NCBI GenBank assembly: GCA_023268255.1
Contig: JALNJX010000001.1
Coordinates: 62,001-126,000 of the forward strand
From: Candidatus Wolframiiraptor sinensis
GTDB taxonomy: Archaea > Thermoproteota > Nitrososphaeria_A > Caldarchaeales > Wolframiiraptoraceae
Length of the DNA stretch: 64,000 nt
Direction of reading: 5' to 3'
Positions 1,487-12,304 of the stretch are shown here, one piece after another (the first letter of the stretch is position 1; each line of letters begins with the position of its first letter). Made by a program: the position numbers and the translations under genes. The notes beneath the pieces were generated by a model, which worked only from the letters and a program-made list of their open reading frames with translations, had not been told where the DNA came from and searched no databases.

Positions 1487-1578
1487 GGGCCCGTAGCTCA
1501 GCCAGGATAGAGCACCGGGCTTTTAACGGTTTTCTGGAAGAGACCCGGGGGTCGCGGGTTCAAAGCCCGCCGGGCCCG
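1487..1578 (+). tRNA. tRNA-Lys (anticodon TTT) with a 17-nt intron
   Basis: The acceptor stem GGGCCCG (1487-1493) pairs with CGGGCCC (1571-1577), with G1578 as discriminator. The D-stem GCTC/GAGC, the anticodon stem CCGGG (1515-1519)/CCCGG (1544-1548) and a T-arm with GGTTCAAA are all present. The anticodon is TTT at 1522-1524. The anticodon loop is interrupted after A1525 by about 17 nt (1526-1542), the canonical 37/38 position of archaeal introns cut by the splicing endonuclease at a bulge-helix-bulge. The exact borders can shift by a base. A full CCA is not encoded: GCA follows the acceptor stem. The mature tRNA would be 75 nt. Confidence 0.93.
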
Positions 1579-1721
1579 CAGACGTATTCTATACGTGAAA
1601 GGGTTACGTAGAAATATGGGGCTGCTCATTCTCTACATGACGATGATTTGAGTCCGGCTTCTGATCTGGTGATGAGGCTTGAAAGGGATGAGTCCGCGCT
1701 GATCATGATTCTACCTGAAAA

Positions 1722-4242: not shown

Positions 4243-4395
4243 CGCGCGGCCCACCGTGGTGGAGAAGCTCTTCGCATGATTGTTGCCGGGATGGCTTAAT
4301 TGAGCTTTTCTCCCCTATAACCTGGACTCACACTTATTAGTAGGTGGCTGAGCATAGTTTATGTCTTGTCTCCTGAAGAGTCCTCTCGCGGGAAG

Positions 4396-4668
4396 ATGTC
4401 CAAGAAGAAGGATTCTCCTCCCTCAGAGGAGTTCTCGATATTGGAGCACTTCCTGGTTCCGAAGCACAGGGTGCTGTCCCCTGAGGAAGCCGAGCAGGTT
4501 CTGAAAAAATATGGCATTAAGCCCCATCAACTTCCAAGCATACTGGCCTCGGACCCGGTCGTTAAGGCGATCGGCGCCAAGCCCGGCGACATAATCGAGA
4601 TCATACGGGACTCGCCCACAGCGGGCAAAGCGGTCTACTACAGGCACGTCGTGCCCGCCGAGGAGTGA
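4396..4668 (+). CDS. rpoH: DNA-directed RNA polymerase subunit H
   Basis: This is the archaeal homologue of the C-terminal domain of eukaryotic Rpb5. The core [19 protein letters not shown], the [11 protein letters not shown] helix and [22 protein letters not shown] are typical, and the size (90 residues) is close to the usual 75-85. It forms part of the RNA polymerase jaw. In most archaea rpoH lies directly before rpoB. Here the gene pair is separated by 4.3 kb holding a recombinase gene and a GC island, so rpoB now needs its own promoter. The ATG at 4396 (MSKKKD) fits the family best. An in-frame TTG at 4366, about 26 nt after a weak TATA-like CTTATTAG, would add ten residues. Confidence 0.95.
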
Positions 4669-4796
4669 GCTTATGGGAAAAAGAGGGTGGTGTCGGGGGA
4701 GGGGCATCTGGATAGCCCTTCACCTGCGCCAACTCTTTCATTACTCCCATACTATCTGGAGTATCTAAAGCCAGATCACAGGCTTCATAAGGGCTT

Positions 4797-5708
4797 TTAT
4801 CCTGCCCCTCCACCAGCAATAGTCTCATTATTGTGGGTCTTCAGAATTCCTAGCAGCCTCCTCAGCACCTCCTTCTCATCCCTGGCCCTCGGCCTAAGGA
4901 TTCCCTTCTTCTTGATCAATATAGCAGCCGTCATCAAATTCAAGCACCTCCTAGCATACCCGCTATATCGCTTCCTGTATTTCTCCCCGTATCTTTCCTC
5001 GAACTTCCTAATGTTTTCCTTGGCCGGCTTATATAATCCGAGGTATCTTATCGCCTTATGCATTGACATGACCTCATAAGGCCACCTCAGGTAGATTAGT
5101 AGCCCTGCTAATGCCGACAGCGCATTGACATCCTCATTATCTAGTCCTAGCTTTTCGGCGACCTCCATGAATCCCGGGATCTTCTCCACAGCATTCTCGA
5201 CTATCTCGCCGCGAACCTCCATTAACCGCTCCTCACAATCCCTGATCTCATCCTCGACATCTATGCCTAGCTCCAGCATCCGTCGTAGCCTCATCAGTTG
5301 CCTGGCTGGCGTCCTCTCCTTCATCAATAATGGCTTGAACTCCACGTCGAGAGGCGTGATCCCCTTAAAAAGCCTCGGCTTATACTCATGGATCCTCGAC
5401 AAGATATAGGCATCACCGAAATCGGTCTTCTCCCTGCCGAACCTCTTCCTCAGCTCCTTAACATATTTCTCGCGTAGCCTCTTCCACTTCCAAGGCCACG
5501 CGAAGTAGAAGACCCTCGCGCCATCGTTTATCAGCGCCTTCAGCTGAGGCCACATATTCGGGAAAAGCGCGCAATCAATGTAAACCTCATCATATCTTCC
5601 GGCGAGCTCAGCGAGATCCTCGACCTCAAAGAACATGTCCTCGGCAGGGTCATAGCATGTATGGGGCTTCGAGTTCCAAGCCGTATCAACGAAAACCCTC
5701 CTCACCAT
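4797..5708 (-). CDS. IS110-like recombinase/transposase
   Basis: The roughly 303-residue protein has the two-part layout of IS110-family enzymes. An N-terminal RuvC-like part has FVDTAW, IDCALF and KTDFGDAYILSRI, giving candidate acidic residues D9, D46, D97 and D100 (numbered from GTG 5711). A C-terminal Transposase_20-like part begins at IPGF (about 179) and has HKAIRYLGLY and KRYSGYARRCLNLMTAA, whose serine (S250) aligns with the catalytic serine. IS110 enzymes move DNA through a structured bridge RNA encoded in the element. Here the DNA immediately upstream on the same strand is a GC-rich, hairpin-dense island. GGGGAGG lies about 7 nt before ATG 5708. The sequence is divergent and I see no terminal repeats (IS110 elements usually lack them), so the element borders are undefined. 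Confidence 0.75.
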   Translation of the reverse strand: MVRRVFVDTAWNSKPHTCYDPAEDMFFEVEDLAELAGRYDEVYIDCALFPNMWPQLKALINDGARVFYFAWPWKWKRLREKYVKELRKRFGREKTDFGDAYILSRIHEYKPRLFKGITPLDVEFKPLLMKERTPARQLMRLRRMLELGIDVEDEIRDCEERLMEVRGEIVENAVEKIPGFMEVAEKLGLDNEDVNALSALAGLLIYLRWPYEVMSMHKAIRYLGLYKPAKENIRKFEERYGEKYRKRYSGYARRCLNLMTAAILIKKKGILRPRARDEKEVLRRLLGILKTHNNETIAGGGAG

Positions 5709-5729
5709 CACTTCCTCCCCTCCTCAGCC

Positions 5730-6795
5730 CATGGCCCCCCGCCACGCGGGGACATGAGCGTCCCAAAAAATCGCGGGGCGGGATGGCCGGTAACTCCGCT
5801 CCCCGGGCATCAGGGGCGGGTCCGACCGAAGGGTGGACGCCATCGCACCACCCCCATTCTATGGGCGGGGGCGCCGGGGACCCTTCCCCGGATCCGTGCG
5901 ATGGCGTCACCCCCGGCCCCGCGAGCGGGTGGCAGGGGGCCGGGCCGTGGAGGGGCTGGCCGCCGCTATGGGTGAGCATGATCCCCGCTGATGCTCCCGG
6001 ACTCCGCGGCGCCTCCCGGGTTAGCTGCGCGCCGTCCGCCTTCCCCGTGCGCCTCCGGCCTATTGGGCCTCGGGCGCCACCCCTTGCCCCACCCCTCCTG
6101 GGGCGTGGTGCCTGGGAGGCCGCTCCCCCATCATCGGGCCAGGGCTCCCGGCTTCCGGGGAGCGGCCCGGATCCGGTTCCGCAATCGGCACCCCTCTTCG
6201 GCGCGGAGCCTTCGGCCCAGCACCGCCCCCGCTTGGCGAGCGCAGAGCGGCGCCCCCACATCGACCCCCCCACATCGGAGCCGAGCCACATCCGGAAGCC
6301 AGCGCCGGCGGGCGGGAGGCGCCCCTCGAGCCCGACGGGATAGCGCCCTGCAGCCGGTCGCCCCCGAGGCCCTCGCGGGCTGGAAGGCGCCCCGGAGCCA
6401 GCCGGCCCAGGCCCCCTCCTCCCACCCTTCCCGGGCGGAAAGGCCTGAGCCGGCCTCCAGGATGGCCGGAGAGCAGCCAGCCGGCATCAGCGCAATCATC
6501 CCCCCTCCCCCCACCCCGCCCGGGAGCTCCAGGAACATTCCCCGGGCGCGGCCGCGTCGAGGGCCGAGCATCATCAAGAACTCCCCGAGCAGGGGAGGGA
6601 GGATCGTGATCGTCGATCGCGCTCGCTCACCCACCCCTTCTCCTCTCCCGCTCCCGGGCTCCCGGGGATGGGCTTTGAGGAGCCCTGGAGCGCCGGCACG
6701 TCTACCCCTCGACCCCTCCACCCCCCGGCATGGAGGGCTTGATGGGGCTATGGGCCGCCGGCCGCCCGCCCGGGCTCCCAGCAGCTGGGAGCCGA
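5730..6795 (-). ncRNA. Candidate large structured RNA in a GC-rich island
   Basis: Two 60-base lines that I counted (5881-5940 and 6421-6480) are 80% and 73% GC, well above the flanking AT-rich DNA. Frames are open on both strands but encode only Pro/Arg/Gly/Ala-rich low-complexity peptides, as expected of non-coding GC-rich DNA. Perfect inverted repeats are dense: 5737-5742/5746-5751; 5836-5848/5896-5908 (13 bp, enclosing 5874-5879/5886-5891); 5912-5920/5936-5944 (9 bp); 5974-5979/5991-5996; 6073-6080/6105-6112 with one G-T pair; 6118-6128/6157-6167 (11 bp); 6517-6524/6541-6548; and 6773-6780/6786-6793. A TATA box on the minus strand lies at 6814-6820. I found no motif of SRP RNA, RNase P RNA, 5S, 16S or 23S rRNA. 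Strand and ends are inferred. Confidence 0.4.
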
Positions 6796-6835
6796 GTCTC
6801 ACGCGTGAGACTGTATTTAAGCTTATCGCGTGAGG
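6795..6835 (-). promoter_or_regulatory. Putative promoter with an adjoining perfect palindrome and repeated octamer
   Basis: Read on the minus strand, AAGCTTAAATAC (6824-6813) looks like a BRE plus TATA box of a strong archaeal promoter. Transcription would begin near 6790, at the edge of the hairpin-rich island. Immediately downstream is the 18-nt perfect palindrome AGTCTCACGCGTGAGACT (6795-6812). The octamer CGCGTGAG occurs at 6802-6809 and again at 6828-6835, so one copy lies on each side of the TATA box. This could be an operator for a dimeric repressor. The promoter call is moderate; the operator is a guess. Confidence 0.45.
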
Positions 6836-6985
6836 CCCCCAGGGGAGGCTCCTGCATCACCCCGCCCAACCCCCCAGGCCCCTCCCGTCGCCGGGAGGCG
6901 GCTCCGCCGGGGAAGCGGATTTCCCAGGGGCTCTCCTCAGGCGGGGCTCATGCCCCTGGAAAGGAACCTCTACGGGTCCCATGAG
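6836..6985. other. GC-rich hairpin-bearing flank of the island
   Basis: This is the last stretch of high GC before the composition drops sharply near 6985. It carries short inverted repeats such as CCTCCC/GGGAGG around 6880-6900, and an 8-bp pair of CCAGGGGC with GCCCCTGG around 6924-6960. It lies upstream of the putative minus-strand promoter, so it would be outside that transcript unless a second promoter exists near 7000. No protein is supported. Confidence 0.35.
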
Positions 6986-7343
6986 CACTTAAGCAATTTA
7001 TCTTGATTTCCGCGGACATATTCGTGGAATTATCGCATGATAACAGCATTATGTCTTCAAGATTATTTGAGATCTGTTTTCGCTGGAAGCATTTGACATA
7101 ATACCTAAATGCTTCAATTATTGAAGTGTCTGCTTGATCTCTCATTTTACTACCTCGGTGGATACCAGCACCGGTTCCTACATATACATTGCAAGGTTAG
7201 TAGATTTGCAAGTTAATGCTGTAATTTCGCGCATATGATCAAAATCAGGTTAACGAGACTATGGACATATGTGAGTAAAGGTGTAAGTATATTTACTCAT
7301 CAGAATGGTTATAAGAGCATGTTTGTGGCGAGGAAAATGGATA
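6986..7343. other. AT-rich intergenic DNA, no gene seen
   Basis: The composition switches abruptly from the GC island to AT-rich DNA. A 65-codon minus-strand frame (7145-6948) crosses the composition boundary and has no recognisable domain; I regard it as chance or decayed sequence. No RNA gene, terminal repeat or clear promoter was seen. Confidence 0.4.
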
Positions 7344-7937
7344 TCAGCACATAAGTAAAGATAATAGGAGAGGTACAATCAGATATAATATCAAGCAGGA
7401 AAGTGGTATGATAATCTTGGTTTCGGCATCACCAGAACTAGATAGCAACTTAGCAAGCCGCTCAAATTCCTCTCTAAACATAATGAAAAATTCCTCAAAA
7501 ATCCTTTCAAAGGCTTCGGTTCCGAGCCTCTCGCGTACTTCTAAGAGAATGCATAATCCCATAATGATTTTCCCGAATTCTGTGAGCCTGTATTGAGTTC
7601 TACCCCTATTTTCTCGCTTCTCAACAAGTTTCTCATTTATGCACTTATTTAAGGATCTGTAGATCTGGGGGCGATCGCCCCTCCTGAAACTTTCCACATC
7701 ACTTCTTCCACTCCTCTTCAGAGTTCTTAGTGGGCGATAAAGTCTCTCAAGCTCCTTCGCTCTAACCCATTCAACACCTAGCGAATGTTGATCATACATT
7801 ATCTTTAACAGCTGAAACTTTGACTTTGATTTTTGCTTCCAGAGCGAAAATACGGCGTTAGTTAAACCCCGAATTCCCTCACCCAATATCTTAATCAGCT
7901 TGAGGTTTTCCTTCCGAAATTCTTCAGAATTGTACAC
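7344..7937 (-). CDS. Membrane-tethered winged-helix protein, possible regulator
   Basis: The 197-residue protein has a winged helix-turn-helix-like middle (about residues 60-130), where RPQIYRSLNKCINEKLV followed by RGRTQYRLTEFGKIIMGL gives recognition helix, wing and final helix. A long amphipathic helix follows, and the C-terminus is a single hydrophobic segment (about 174-195). The topology suggests a DNA-binding domain held at the membrane by a C-terminal anchor. The start is GTG 7937, with TATA-like AT-rich DNA 10-35 nt upstream. The gene sits alone in low-GC DNA between the GC island and rpoB, and its Lys/Ile-rich codon use differs from the housekeeping genes, consistent with a transferred segment. 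The target is unknown. Confidence 0.6.
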   Translation of the reverse strand: MYNSEEFRKENLKLIKILGEGIRGLTNAVFSLWKQKSKSKFQLLKIMYDQHSLGVEWVRAKELERLYRPLRTLKRSGRSDVESFRRGDRPQIYRSLNKCINEKLVEKRENRGRTQYRLTEFGKIIMGLCILLEVRERLGTEAFERIFEEFFIMFREEFERLAKLLSSSGDAETKIIIPLSCLILYLIVPLLLSLLMC

Positions 7938-8829
7938 GTCAAATATATTAAGCCAAAACTATAATACCTTTTCGCTTACTAAGCTATGCTCTGGTCACGT
8001 TCTTTCTAGAATGTTGTGATGAAATAAGAATAATGTGCCGCGAATATACTTCTAACTCTACCTACTTTGAGGCAGAGTCAATCTTGCTTTTACTAACACA
8101 TGTTGCCCACATCTCACATACCCATGGCTCTATTTATTATCTCATCACGCATCTTCCAATTGTTAATCGTTATGAAGTTGCATGATTCCTTCAAATTTCT
8201 AAGGATATTTTGGAAAGAATTTTAAGTAACCCGGTTGATAAGTGTTATCAAATTCTTTACTAAAGTTTTAGCTCATCTAGAACTCTTTAGCGATCTCTTA
8301 ATTCCAGCCAACTTACCCACCTTTATCTATGAATAGATGAAGAGTTTACCCATCAATTCATTCCTTCCATAAGGATTCTCAAATAAATCGAGTTCATTCA
8401 TCGTATCCTGTTTCCAACGATTAATGTCGCCAGCGCCATCGCCAGCCGTGCGTAAGTAGTATTTCTCAGGCTCAACGGAATCAGTAGCATCTCTGATATA
8501 GTTAATATTTGTTCATTTTCTTCGCTGCAAGGAAAACGTTCTAGGCTTTCTTTCAATCTACGGAAGCCTATCTCCTCCAACATAAGAATATGAAAACTGT
8601 AAAATCTTGCTGAAGATGTTTATGAGAAGGAGACGCTGTCAATATCATATAGTCTAAAGAATCCAGAGTATTCATTACGTCATAAACACTCAAGCATTTC
8701 GAGATTAAGTATTTTGATGAAGGGTAAGAGGGTCTCCTCAAAAGGAGGTTTGGTTTTATAGCTTTATTTACCTTTTTTTGGGAAACTTTAGCGGTTATGG
8801 TGGTTATTAGGAGGGGGTCATAAATAAAT
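7938..8829. other. AT-rich gene-poor segment upstream of rpoB
   Basis: About 0.9 kb with no convincing gene. A 61-codon minus-strand frame (8583-8398) has no recognisable features. A run of seven T at 8773-8779 could act as an archaeal U-tract terminator shielding rpoB from upstream plus-strand transcription. No repeats, tRNA or attachment site could be seen by eye. It looks like degraded mobile-element DNA, which is an inference from composition and position only. Confidence 0.4.
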
Positions 8830-8958
8830 GTGAGGCTGATTAAAATTATAGCAAAGCTTAAAGCCAGGGGCTGGAGAAAGGGGGTTAGGGAAGTGGTAAT
8901 CTCGAGTATAATATTTATGGAGAAAAGCTTGGAGCCTGGAGGGATGTTGGATGCTTAA
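8830..8958 (+). CDS. Possible 42-residue ORF overlapping the rpoB start
   Basis: A GTG at 8830 opens a 42-codon frame that ends 8 nt inside rpoB (TAA 8956-8958). The peptide is basic at its start (RLIKIIAKLKARGWRKGVRE) and otherwise unremarkable. GGAGGGGG lies about 14 nt upstream, further than usual. The rpoB TATA box lies inside this frame, so it would need its own promoter. It may be chance; it is listed only because of the overlap. Confidence 0.15.
   Translation: MRLIKIIAKLKARGWRKGVREVVISSIIFMEKSLEPGGMLDA
8907..8917 (+). promoter_or_regulatory. TATA box for rpoB
   Basis: TATAATATTTA lies about 35-45 nt before the rpoB ATG, leaving a leader of roughly 10-15 nt that contains GGAGGG as the ribosome-binding site. 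This promoter matters because the usual upstream partner, rpoH, is 4.3 kb away. Confidence 0.55.
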
Positions 8959-11900
8959 GCAAGTTGAGTTTACCCAGGAGGACTTATGGAGCGTAATTCG
9001 CGCATACCTAGAGGATGAGGGGCTGGTACAGCATCATCTAAAATCCTATAATTGGTTCATTAAGGAGGGCTTGAACGAGCTGATAAAATCTCTCGGAGAT
9101 CTGGAGATTCAGACGAAATATGGCACGCTGGTGCTTAAGATGAGGAATCCCGAGGTCGGAAAGCCGATCTTCGAAGAGGTCGATGGGACGGTTAGGGAGA
9201 ATGTAACTCCCATGGAGTGCAGGCTTCGAAATCTCACCTACGCCGCGCCGCTGTACGTTGAGATGATGCTTTACTTGGATGGCAAGCCTGTTACCCCGAA
9301 GCCGGAGAAGGTTAAGGTGGGCATAATCCCGATAATGGTGAAGTCCGACATCTGCCCGCTCTCCAAGATGAGCGATGAGGAGCTGATGGAGATAGGCGAG
9401 GATCCGAAGGATCCCGGAGGATACTTCATAATAAATGGATCAGAACGAGTCATAGTCGCGATAGAGGATCTAACACCAAACAGGATCCTAGTTACCGAGA
9501 GGGAGACAGATAGCGGGCAATTGAGCGCGATCGTCATCTCGGTTGCTCACGGCAGGCAGGCGAGGACCGAGGTGACATATAAGCCGGGCGGCCCGGTCAA
9601 GGTCTTCTTCTCCAGGATCTATAAGGGTATACCGGCGATAATACTGCTCAGAGCGCTTGGGATGACGAATGACCGGGAGATTCTCAGTATGATATCCAGG
9701 TTGGAGGAGGTTCGAGATCTCCTCCAGCCCTCATTCGAGGAGGCAGCAGGCATAGACACGGAACAGGAGGCCCTCAGATATATTGGTAATAGGATAGCCT
9801 TCGGCTACGCGGAGGAATATAGGATTCAGCGCGCAGAGCAGCTCATAGATAGCGTTCTCCTACCGCATATTGGCACGAATAAGGCAGCGAGGTACCAGAA
9901 GGCGATTTTCCTTTGCGAGATGATAGGTAGGCTCTTGGAAACCAGCATCGGGATCCGGAAGCTCACGGATCGAGACCATTACGCTAATAAGAGGCTTAAG
10001 CTCGCTGGCCCACTCCTAATGGAGCTCTACAGGATGGCTTTCATGAAGCTCCTGAGGGACATAAGATACCAGATCGAGCGGGCGGCGGCCTCCAGATACC
10101 CGATAAAGATCTCCACATTCGTGAGGCCCGGCATAATAACGGACTTCGTGAAGCATGCTCTGGCAACGGGAAACTGGCCCGGGGGAAGAGTAGGGGTAAC
10201 ACAGCTGCTAAACAGGACGAATCACCTCGCGACCATAAGCCATTTGCGCAGAGTCCAGTCTCCCCTCAGCAGGAGCCAGCCGCACTTTGAGGCGAGAGAT
10301 CTTCATGGAACTCATTGGGGGAGGATATGTCCGGCCGAGACTCCTGAGGGAAGCAACTGCGGCCTCGTCAAGAACCTCGCCCTCATGGCCGAGATAACGC
10401 ATCCCATGAGGAAGCGCGAGCTCCTCGAGAAGCTATACTCGCTCGGCGTCATACCGCTCTCCGAGGCTATAACGAGAAAAAGAACATACCCAACGAAGGT
10501 CTTCGTGGACGGCCTCCTAATAGGCTATCATGCTGATGGCGCGAAGCTCGTGAAATCGGTGAGGGAGTTGAGGCGGAGGGGCGAGATAAGTCATCTTGTG
10601 AACGTCACGCTATACGAATACCCACACTTAACGGAGGTTTGGATAAATACTGATGAGGGCCGCGTGAGAAGGCCACTCATAATCGTCGAGAATGGTAGGC
10701 CTTTACTGACCGCAGAGCACATTAAGGGATTGAAGGAGGGCACGCTGAGATTCAGAGATCTGGTCTCGATGGGGATCATAGAGTTCTTGGACGCGGAGGA
10801 GGAAGAGAATGCGATGGTCGCGCTCCGGCCTGAGGAACTGTCTGAGGAGCACACCCACCTCGAGATATGCCCATACACGATACTGGGCGCTGTCGTCTCG
10901 ATAATCCCCTATGCCGAGCACAATCAGTCTCCGAGAAACATCTATGAGGGCGCCATGGGCAAGCAGGCGCTCGGAGTATACGCGATAAACAATCATCTCA
11001 GAGTGGACTCCAGGTCCCACATCCTCGTCTATCCCCAAAAGCCCATAGTCATAACGAAAGCGATGGAGCTTCTGGACGTGTACACTAGGCCCATAGGTCA
11101 GAACATGGTCGTTGCGATCCTGACAGGGCAGGGATACAACATGGAGGACGCGGTCGTCCTCAACAAGTCGGCAGTCGAGAGGGGGCTAGCTCTCTCTCTA
11201 AGCTACAGGGTTTACGAGGTGGAGGCGAGAACCTACATAGGAGGGGAGAAAGACGTTATTAGGATACCGGAGCCGACTGTGAGGGGCTATAGGGGAGAGC
11301 ACGCTTACAGGGTTTTGGACGCAGATGGCCTAGCGTACGTCGAGGCAGATGTGACGGGCGGCATGGTGATAGTCGGAGTCCAGAGCCCACCCAGATTCCT
11401 AGAAGAATATCAGCGCGCGCCAGCCAGGGAGCTCGTCTGGAGAGATGCCTCCGAAACCGTTAGACCATCCGAAGCCGGCGTCGTCGACACAATATTCATA
11501 ACGAAGAACGAGGAGGGCAATAAGCTGATCAAGGCTAAGGTCAGGTCTTTCTGCGTCGCGGAGATAGGCGACAAGTTCGCGTCAAGGCATGGGCAGAAGG
11601 GAGTTGTCGGGATGGTCCTGCCCCAGGAAGATATGCCTTACACTGCGAGCGGCATAGTGCCCGACTTGATAATCAACCCGCACGCCTTCCCGAGCAGGAT
11701 GACTATAGGCCAGCTTCTCGAGAGCATTGCTGGAAAGGTCGGAGCATTAAAGGGAGAATTCATCGATGGAACACCATTCATGGGCAAGCCGATAGATGAG
11801 CTCAGGAGAGAGCTAGAGGCGCTCGGATTCAAGAGCTCCGGCAAGGAGGTGATGTATGACGGCTTAACCGGGAAGAGGTATGAGGCCGAGATATTCATAG

Positions 11901-12304
11901 GAATTGTCTACTACCAGAAGCTCCATCACCTCGTTAGGGATAAGATTCACGCGAGGGCCAGGGGCCGGGTCCAGATGTTGACAAGACAGCCCACCGAGGG
12001 CCGGAGCAGGGGAGGAGGGCTCAAGTTCGGGGAGATGGAGAGAGACTGCCTGATAGCTCACGGCGCGAGCTTCCTCCTGCTCGACAGGCTACTCGAGCAG
12101 AGCGACAAGCATACGGCATACTTCTGCAAAATCTGTGGGCTCCCGGCCTACCACGACCTGAAGCAAGAGCGCTTCATATGCCCGGTTCACGGGAAGGATG
12201 CTGACATCTCGGTCGTAACCCTGCCATACGCGTTCTACCTCCTCTTGGAGGAGATGATGAGCATGTGCATCCATCCCAAGCTCCTATTCGGGGAGGAGGT
12301 GTGA
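8951..12304 (+). CDS. rpoB: DNA-directed RNA polymerase subunit B (unsplit)
   Basis: The 1117-residue protein is a full-length B subunit; many euryarchaea split it into B' and B'', this lineage does not. Recognisable blocks are the ETPEGSNCGLVKNLAL fork region (about residue 460), GQNMVVAILTGQGYNMEDA (about 715), GDKFASRHGQKGVVG (about 872, the hybrid-binding and catalytic region) and a C-terminal zinc ribbon with CKICGLPAYHD and CPVHG (about 1058-1080). It forms one side of the active-site cleft. ATG 8951 is preceded by GGAGGG. The gene heads the rpoB-rpoA-rpl30e-nusA run, whose members are directly abutting or closely spaced. Confidence 0.97.
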   Translation: MLKQVEFTQEDLWSVIRAYLEDEGLVQHHLKSYNWFIKEGLNELIKSLGDLEIQTKYGTLVLKMRNPEVGKPIFEEVDGTVRENVTPMECRLRNLTYAAPLYVEMMLYLDGKPVTPKPEKVKVGIIPIMVKSDICPLSKMSDEELMEIGEDPKDPGGYFIINGSERVIVAIEDLTPNRILVTERETDSGQLSAIVISVAHGRQARTEVTYKPGGPVKVFFSRIYKGIPAIILLRALGMTNDREILSMISRLEEVRDLLQPSFEEAAGIDTEQEALRYIGNRIAFGYAEEYRIQRAEQLIDSVLLPHIGTNKAARYQKAIFLCEMIGRLLETSIGIRKLTDRDHYANKRLKLAGPLLMELYRMAFMKLLRDIRYQIERAAASRYPIKISTFVRPGIITDFVKHALATGNWPGGRVGVTQLLNRTNHLATISHLRRVQSPLSRSQPHFEARDLHGTHWGRICPAETPEGSNCGLVKNLALMAEITHPMRKRELLEKLYSLGVIPLSEAITRKRTYPTKVFVDGLLIGYHADGAKLVKSVRELRRRGEISHLVNVTLYEYPHLTEVWINTDEGRVRRPLIIVENGRPLLTAEHIKGLKEGTLRFRDLVSMGIIEFLDAEEEENAMVALRPEELSEEHTHLEICPYTILGAVVSIIPYAEHNQSPRNIYEGAMGKQALGVYAINNHLRVDSRSHILVYPQKPIVITKAMELLDVYTRPIGQNMVVAILTGQGYNMEDAVVLNKSAVERGLALSLSYRVYEVEARTYIGGEKDVIRIPEPTVRGYRGEHAYRVLDADGLAYVEADVTGGMVIVGVQSPPRFLEEYQRAPARELVWRDASETVRPSEAGVVDTIFITKNEEGNKLIKAKVRSFCVAEIGDKFASRHGQKGVVGMVLPQEDMPYTASGIVPDLIINPHAFPSRMTIGQLLESIAGKVGALKGEFIDGTPFMGKPIDELRRELEALGFKSSGKEVMYDGLTGKRYEAEIFIGIVYYQKLHHLVRDKIHARARGRVQMLTRQPTEGRSRGGGLKFGEMERDCLIAHGASFLLLDRLLEQSDKHTAYFCKICGLPAYHDLKQERFICPVHGKDADISVVTLPYAFYLLLEEMMSMCIHPKLLFGEEV

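Follow-up and report, generated by a model that had tools for sequence, protein, structure and literature searches.

An insertion between rpoH and rpoB of Candidatus Wolframiiraptor sinensis carries a probable large structured RNA

A GC-rich island between rpoH and rpoB

The window analysed here is a 64,000-nucleotide stretch of the hot-spring archaeon Candidatus Wolframiiraptor sinensis (assembly GCA_023268255.1, contig JALNJX010000001.1, positions 62,001 to 126,000), from a metagenome-assembled genome (MAG) of 1.23 Mb in 10 contigs. Its rpoH and rpoB genes are separated by a 4.18-kb insertion with three parts: a transposase-like open reading frame (ORF) at approximately 50% GC, a GC-rich island at 74%, and an AT-rich part at approximately 38% GC, which contains one predicted winged-helix ORF (Table 1). 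In the corresponding loci of close relatives, rpoB directly follows rpoH and the insertion aligns to nothing. RpoB of the window shares 96% identity with its counterpart in Ca. Wolframiiraptor allenii and 95% with the W. gerlachensis protein, which places the genome in Caldarchaeales (Aigarchaeota). From sequence comparison, the island is probably the gene of a structured RNA of approximately 1.2 kb, transcribed from the minus strand and representing a new RNA family of Thermoproteota mobile elements.

The sharp compositional difference reported in the original prediction is confirmed, with 74.0% GC in the island (5730-6985) against a mean of 55% in the remaining window (standard deviation 4.6% per 300 bp, maximum 66%). 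The claim that the island holds no credible protein also stands: its period-3 power is 1.06, compared with 11-18 in neighbouring coding genes, and a Pfam search of its four longest ORFs gave no match, so that a protein-coding reading was discarded. Insertions and deletions between homologous islands, described below, break the reading frame. Known RNA families, including GOLLD, ROOL, OLE, group I and II introns, SRP RNA and RNase P RNA, were likewise set aside, as the island has no match in Rfam 15 at gathering or relaxed thresholds; the original prediction had likewise found no SRP, RNase P or rRNA motif. At the gathering score, the sole match in the whole window is a tRNA gene (matched at 1487-1578), whose four-base anticodon call is ambiguous and which probably contains an intron. 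At E ≤ 1 or E ≤ 0.5, positions 4700-8900 and the related loci in genomes G029, G326 and G001 gave chance-level matches only, all outside the island.

The three stems named in the original prediction, of 13 bp, of 11 bp and with a G-T pair, are all present. The number and perfection of such stems, which it took as the key evidence, make a weak argument on their own. Perfect stems of at least 8 bp number 8, compared with 8.9 in dinucleotide shuffles, and those of at least 11 bp number 2, compared with 0.5 (maximum 3), both ordinary values, whereas the one stem of at least 13 bp is exceptional, with none in 20 dinucleotide shuffles. Folding of both strands, proposed as a check, gave z-scores of −2.6 (minus strand) and −0.8 (plus strand) for the 800 nucleotides at 5760-6560; sliding windows across the island gave variable results. 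Folding of the single sequence thus exceeds chance only mildly, and the strong evidence for a structured RNA is comparative.

Homologous islands in other Thermoproteota

BLAST of the island across the order returned one credible relative, in G029 (75% over 85 bp), and local alignment extended this similarity to approximately 300 bp (score 112; shuffles 28 ± 3.4, maximum 39). Covariance models were then run on 398 Thermoproteota genomes. R1, a model of the 5′ core shared by the window and G029, gave one new strong match (rough E-value 1.5e-13), in G326, a genome of a different class (n = 81 genomes) from that of the window genome (n = 44 genomes). The G326 island is GC-rich and approximately 1.5 kb long. 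It matches the window at its 5′ end and, in a region over 1 kb from the 5′ core that R1 had not seen, at its 3′ end as well; whole-length similarity reaches a local score of 364 (shuffles 53 ± 7.5, maximum 80). A further 5′ core model, R2, matches the window, G326 and G029. R3, built on the 3′ domain of the window and G326, identified a partial relative in G001, a genome of the same genus as the window (rough E-value 2.2e-8), where approximately 230 bp upstream of the match are also similar to G326 (score 124; shuffles 34 ± 3.9). The matches of R1 to G326 and of R3 to G001 are independent tests, since each genome was absent from the building of the model that found it.

The distribution is patchy, with R1 and R3 matches in only a handful of the 398 genomes. 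No second copy of the RNA was found in the window's own genome, and searches of viral contigs and of plasmid and phage collections found none. A weak R3 match in G038 (24 bits) is unproven; it falls in a GC-rich, hairpin-rich region of approximately 1 kb that appears not to code for protein and precedes an IS110-like ORF. Short matches in sucD-like (L024, L026 and L029), hisD-like (L091) and purL-like (L134) sequences were dismissed as coincidence because they are located inside coding genes.

Conserved domains and structure of the RNA

Judged by the limits of conservation, the RNA would start near 6975 and end near 5741, with near-terminal hairpins GGGGCATGAGCCCC (5′) and GGGACGCTCATGTCCC (3′) in alignment A6. 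Within the 3′ domain, the 13-bp stem, described in the original prediction as enclosing further hairpins, forms the base of a three-way junction with two hairpins. In alignment A13, comprising the window, G326 and G001, all 26 pairs of the junction are kept (78 of 78 pair cells), and both sides have changed in 7 of the 13 pairs of the long stem, a level of compensatory change reached by 0 of 500 shuffles. Sliding the junction partners against each other lowers the paired cells from 100% to 45-59%. The last hairpin is predicted to accommodate an invariant U6 run as an internal bulge, and the same run could act as a terminator.

Consensus folds on the minus strand lie far below those of column-shuffled alignments, with z-scores of −8.3 for the 5′ domain, −2.4 for the middle and −11.5 for the 3′ domain; the corresponding values for the opposite strand are −5.1, −2.0 and −7.3. 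On the minus strand, G-U cells outnumber A-C cells by 4 to 0 in the junction and by 11 to 2 in the 5′ core. Together, the strand difference of the folds and the excess of G-U over A-C indicate that the conserved structure most likely belongs to a minus-strand RNA. The island combines a covariation-backed structure with a lack of coding potential, two of the features of large structured (‘ornate’) non-coding RNAs. The proposal of a large structured RNA is supported by the homologous islands, full-length in G326 and partial in G029 and G001, by the compensatory changes and by the consensus folds. Beyond that proposal, the comparison reveals the minus strand, a mobile-element setting, and conserved 5′ and 3′ domains flanking a variable middle.

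Table 1 Positions of the features in the window and at related loci (positions are those of the window unless a locus is named)
Feature	Position	Strand	Remarks
tRNA gene	1487-1579		Rfam match
rpoH	4366-4668
Insertion holding the RNA, 4.18 kb	4681-8857	.	empty site in close relatives L040, L034, L035
Multicopy mobile-element ORF, 304 aa, candidate IS110-like transposase	4797-5711	-	~30 nt downstream of RNA, same strand
Predicted large structured RNA, ~1,235 nt (GC island)	5741-6975	-	similarity to G326 island over whole length, alignment A6; no Rfam match at E ≤ 1
Conserved 3′ domain	5741-5914	-	86% mean column identity with G326
Invariant U6 run	5765-5770	-	CCGCCCCGCGATTTTTTGGGACG identical in window and G326 (23 identical bases)
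Three-way junction	5836-5908	-	stem 5896-5908/5836-5848 (13 bp); hairpins 5886-5891/5874-5879 and 5867-5873/5849-5855
Perfect 13-bp stem	5836-5848/5896-5908		plus-strand coordinates
Variable middle	5915-6639	-	weak G326 conservation, local alignment 118; shuffles 50 ± 7.8, maximum 78
Stem with G-T pair on plus strand	6073-6080/6105-6112		in variable middle
Perfect 11-bp stem	6118-6128/6157-6167		plus-strand coordinates
Conserved 5′ domain	6640-6975	-	kept in G326 and G029
5′ core, basis of R1 and R2	6683-6794	-	..GGCCCATAGCCCC..AAGCC..GAGGGGTAGA..GCCGGC..
AT-rich part of insertion	7000-8857
Predicted winged-helix ORF, C-terminal hydrophobic stretch	7344-7937	-	upstream of RNA; winged helix-turn-helix matches weak, below cut-off; period-3 signal weak
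rpoB	8951-12304
Iteron array, G326	L135:10361-10583		directly upstream of RNA
Iteron array, G029	L023:1746-1904		directly upstream of RNA
GC-rich region, G038	L145:2795-3790		weak 3′-domain match
‘SDAFAEL’ family loci	L144:9998-10315, L135:520-849, L040:3870-4190, L102:2630-2950, L124:2683-2997, L008:1250-1488, L073:2604-2723

Genomic setting

The neighbour genes of the RNA vary from locus to locus. In each of three loci (window, G326 and G001), a same-strand ORF starts no more than a few dozen nucleotides from the conserved 3′ end, but the three are unrelated, being respectively the transposase-like ORF, a 110-aa protein and an approximately 105-aa protein, ‘SDAFAEL’. The last of these, which follows the partial RNA in G001, has a homologue in the G326 element and others near TnpB and IS110-like genes elsewhere; this recurrent small family gave no family match where tested. 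Genes on the G326 contig include those for a CedD/HerA-type ATPase, for CedE/CedA-like membrane proteins, for a PriL-like primase subunit and for an XPD/DinG-like helicase. Such a set would be expected on a plasmid or integrative element whose transfer system resembles Ced and type IV secretion systems (T4SS). In both G326 and G029, iteron arrays with an 11-12-bp period, first direct and then inverted, directly precede the RNA; their sequences are unrelated and their layout is alike, whereas the window has no such arrays. These iterons could be operator sites for the promoter of the RNA or part of a replication origin.

The transposase-like ORF has 20 matches in its own genome. The sequence shared by the other copies runs from near 4675 to near 5708 and leaves out the RNA, and the idea that the RNA is part of a multicopy insertion sequence (IS) was therefore abandoned. 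Similarity of the ORF to IS110 is weak (NCBIfam IS110 E-value 0.3, with 0.039 the best in its family), as is a Pfam DEDD_Tnp match of one relative (E-value 0.2), and a PDB profile search gave no match. A single-sequence structure model is of low confidence (predicted local distance difference test score 54) and has RNase H-like neighbours, none significant, so that a fold assignment was dropped. The Caldarchaeales family to which this ORF belongs matches nothing significantly in Pfam, NCBIfam or PDB and is a possible new IS family.

Alternative explanations

The main rival to an RNA gene, albeit an unlikely one, is a role at the DNA level, in which the island serves a plasmid-like element as replication origin or transfer region, its hairpins form in single-stranded DNA and the iterons bind an initiator. 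The abutting iteron arrays of G326 and G029, the primase- and helicase-like genes of the G326 element, and the resemblance of the near-terminal hairpins to inverted ends would all be in keeping with such a site. Yet the consensus folds and the G-U and A-C counts favour the minus strand, an origin of 1.2 kb with a three-way junction would be large, and the window copy lacks iterons. More improbable again is a guide of the bridge-RNA type, originating from the non-coding end of the element of the adjacent IS110-like transposase. IS110 recombinases do employ RNA of their non-coding ends (PMC11208160), the window RNA ends just upstream of a same-strand ORF that is a candidate IS110-like gene, and approximately 90 bp separate the weak G038 match from a further member of this transposase family downstream. 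Nevertheless, the sequence shared by the other transposase copies in the genome stops near the start codon, no such gene follows the RNA in G326 or G001, the assignment of the ORF to IS110 is weak in its own right, and the RNA is approximately 7 times the length of the 177-nt IS621 bridge RNA (PMC11208160). The suggestion of a TnpB omega RNA, raised by a pattern match in L096 to an apparent tnpB 3′ end, was rejected because the reading frame is not the same and the tails of other tnpB genes do not match. Translations beside the RNA contain no TnpB zinc-ribbon reading, and the tnpB loci tested share only a 29-bp match with the island and gave no match to R2 or R3.

A very long 5′ leader, regulating whatever gene lies downstream, would account for the closely spaced same-strand ORFs, but unrelated downstream genes are unusual for cis regulators and a leader of 1.2 kb would be long, which makes this explanation hard to credit. 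The length of the RNA and its changing neighbours thus render both guide and leader less likely. Least probable of all is a functionless stretch that is GC-rich by chance or is decayed foreign DNA: although 8-11-bp stem counts near those of shuffles and a modest single-sequence z-score would fit it, homology across classes with compensatory changes at paired positions is unexpected under unconstrained decay, and the junction covariation and consensus-fold results contradict it.

Several observations weigh against a minus-strand RNA gene. The family has two full-length and two partial members only, and the covariation is based on two or three sequences. The single-sequence folding of the island departs only mildly from chance, and the plus strand also beats its folding null, as expected of any hairpin-rich DNA. 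Neither iterons nor plasmid genes accompany the window copy, and mobile-element contigs in MAGs can be mis-binned.

Proposed role

As a gene for a structured RNA, the island would be transcribed as a free-standing unit from a promoter just upstream, and its product would form a stable folded particle, which may include proteins. Such a particle may serve the replication, maintenance or transfer of the mobile element, not the host. Its mode of action is a guess; by analogy with other large RNAs of mobile elements, a scaffold or a ribonucleoprotein seems most likely. No relaxase is known for archaeal conjugative plasmids (PMC9905601). A more ambitious possibility, which we regard as doubtful, is that this is the first giant ornate RNA family of archaea, carried on Ced/T4SS-type conjugative or integrative elements of Thermoproteota and acting directly in the DNA replication, maintenance or transfer of these elements, in which no relaxase is recognised. 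The iterons and the transfer and replication genes near the RNA in a relative make a role in archaeal mobile elements testable.

Comparison with known large RNAs

In a partial literature search, which is no proof of novelty, no title or abstract was found that describes such an RNA in archaea. Structured RNAs beside transposase-type ORFs of mobile elements are familiar from IS110 bridge RNAs and TnpB omega RNAs, but the present RNA is much longer, is absent from sister transposase copies and has no transposase link in G326 or G001. A closer likeness is to GOLLD, which exceeds 800 nt in many members, has several domains, with strong conservation in one region and variation in another, and is borne by mobile elements without encoding a protein (PMC12286853). 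As opposed to GOLLD, which is found in phages and prophages of bacteria and frequently close to tRNA islands, the present RNA occurs in an archaeon and is conserved at both ends and variable in the middle, with no sequence or covariance-model match between them. ROOL is similarly a large structured mobile-element RNA of unknown function (PMC12286853), but it comes from bacteria and is shorter, at 659 nt in the solved example. OLE shares large size, an elaborate secondary structure and occurrence in extremophiles; it is bacterial, however, and is accompanied by OLE-associated proteins, OapB and OapC among them (cited in PMC12286853). Given the lack of a covariance-model match to GOLLD, ROOL or OLE, we do not file the RNA as a member of any of them. 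These three RNAs, described from bacteria and their phages, constitute a current puzzle of large structured RNAs with unknown function; an archaeal counterpart of separate origin would broaden the phenomenon and offer a thermostable, GC-rich subject for structural work.
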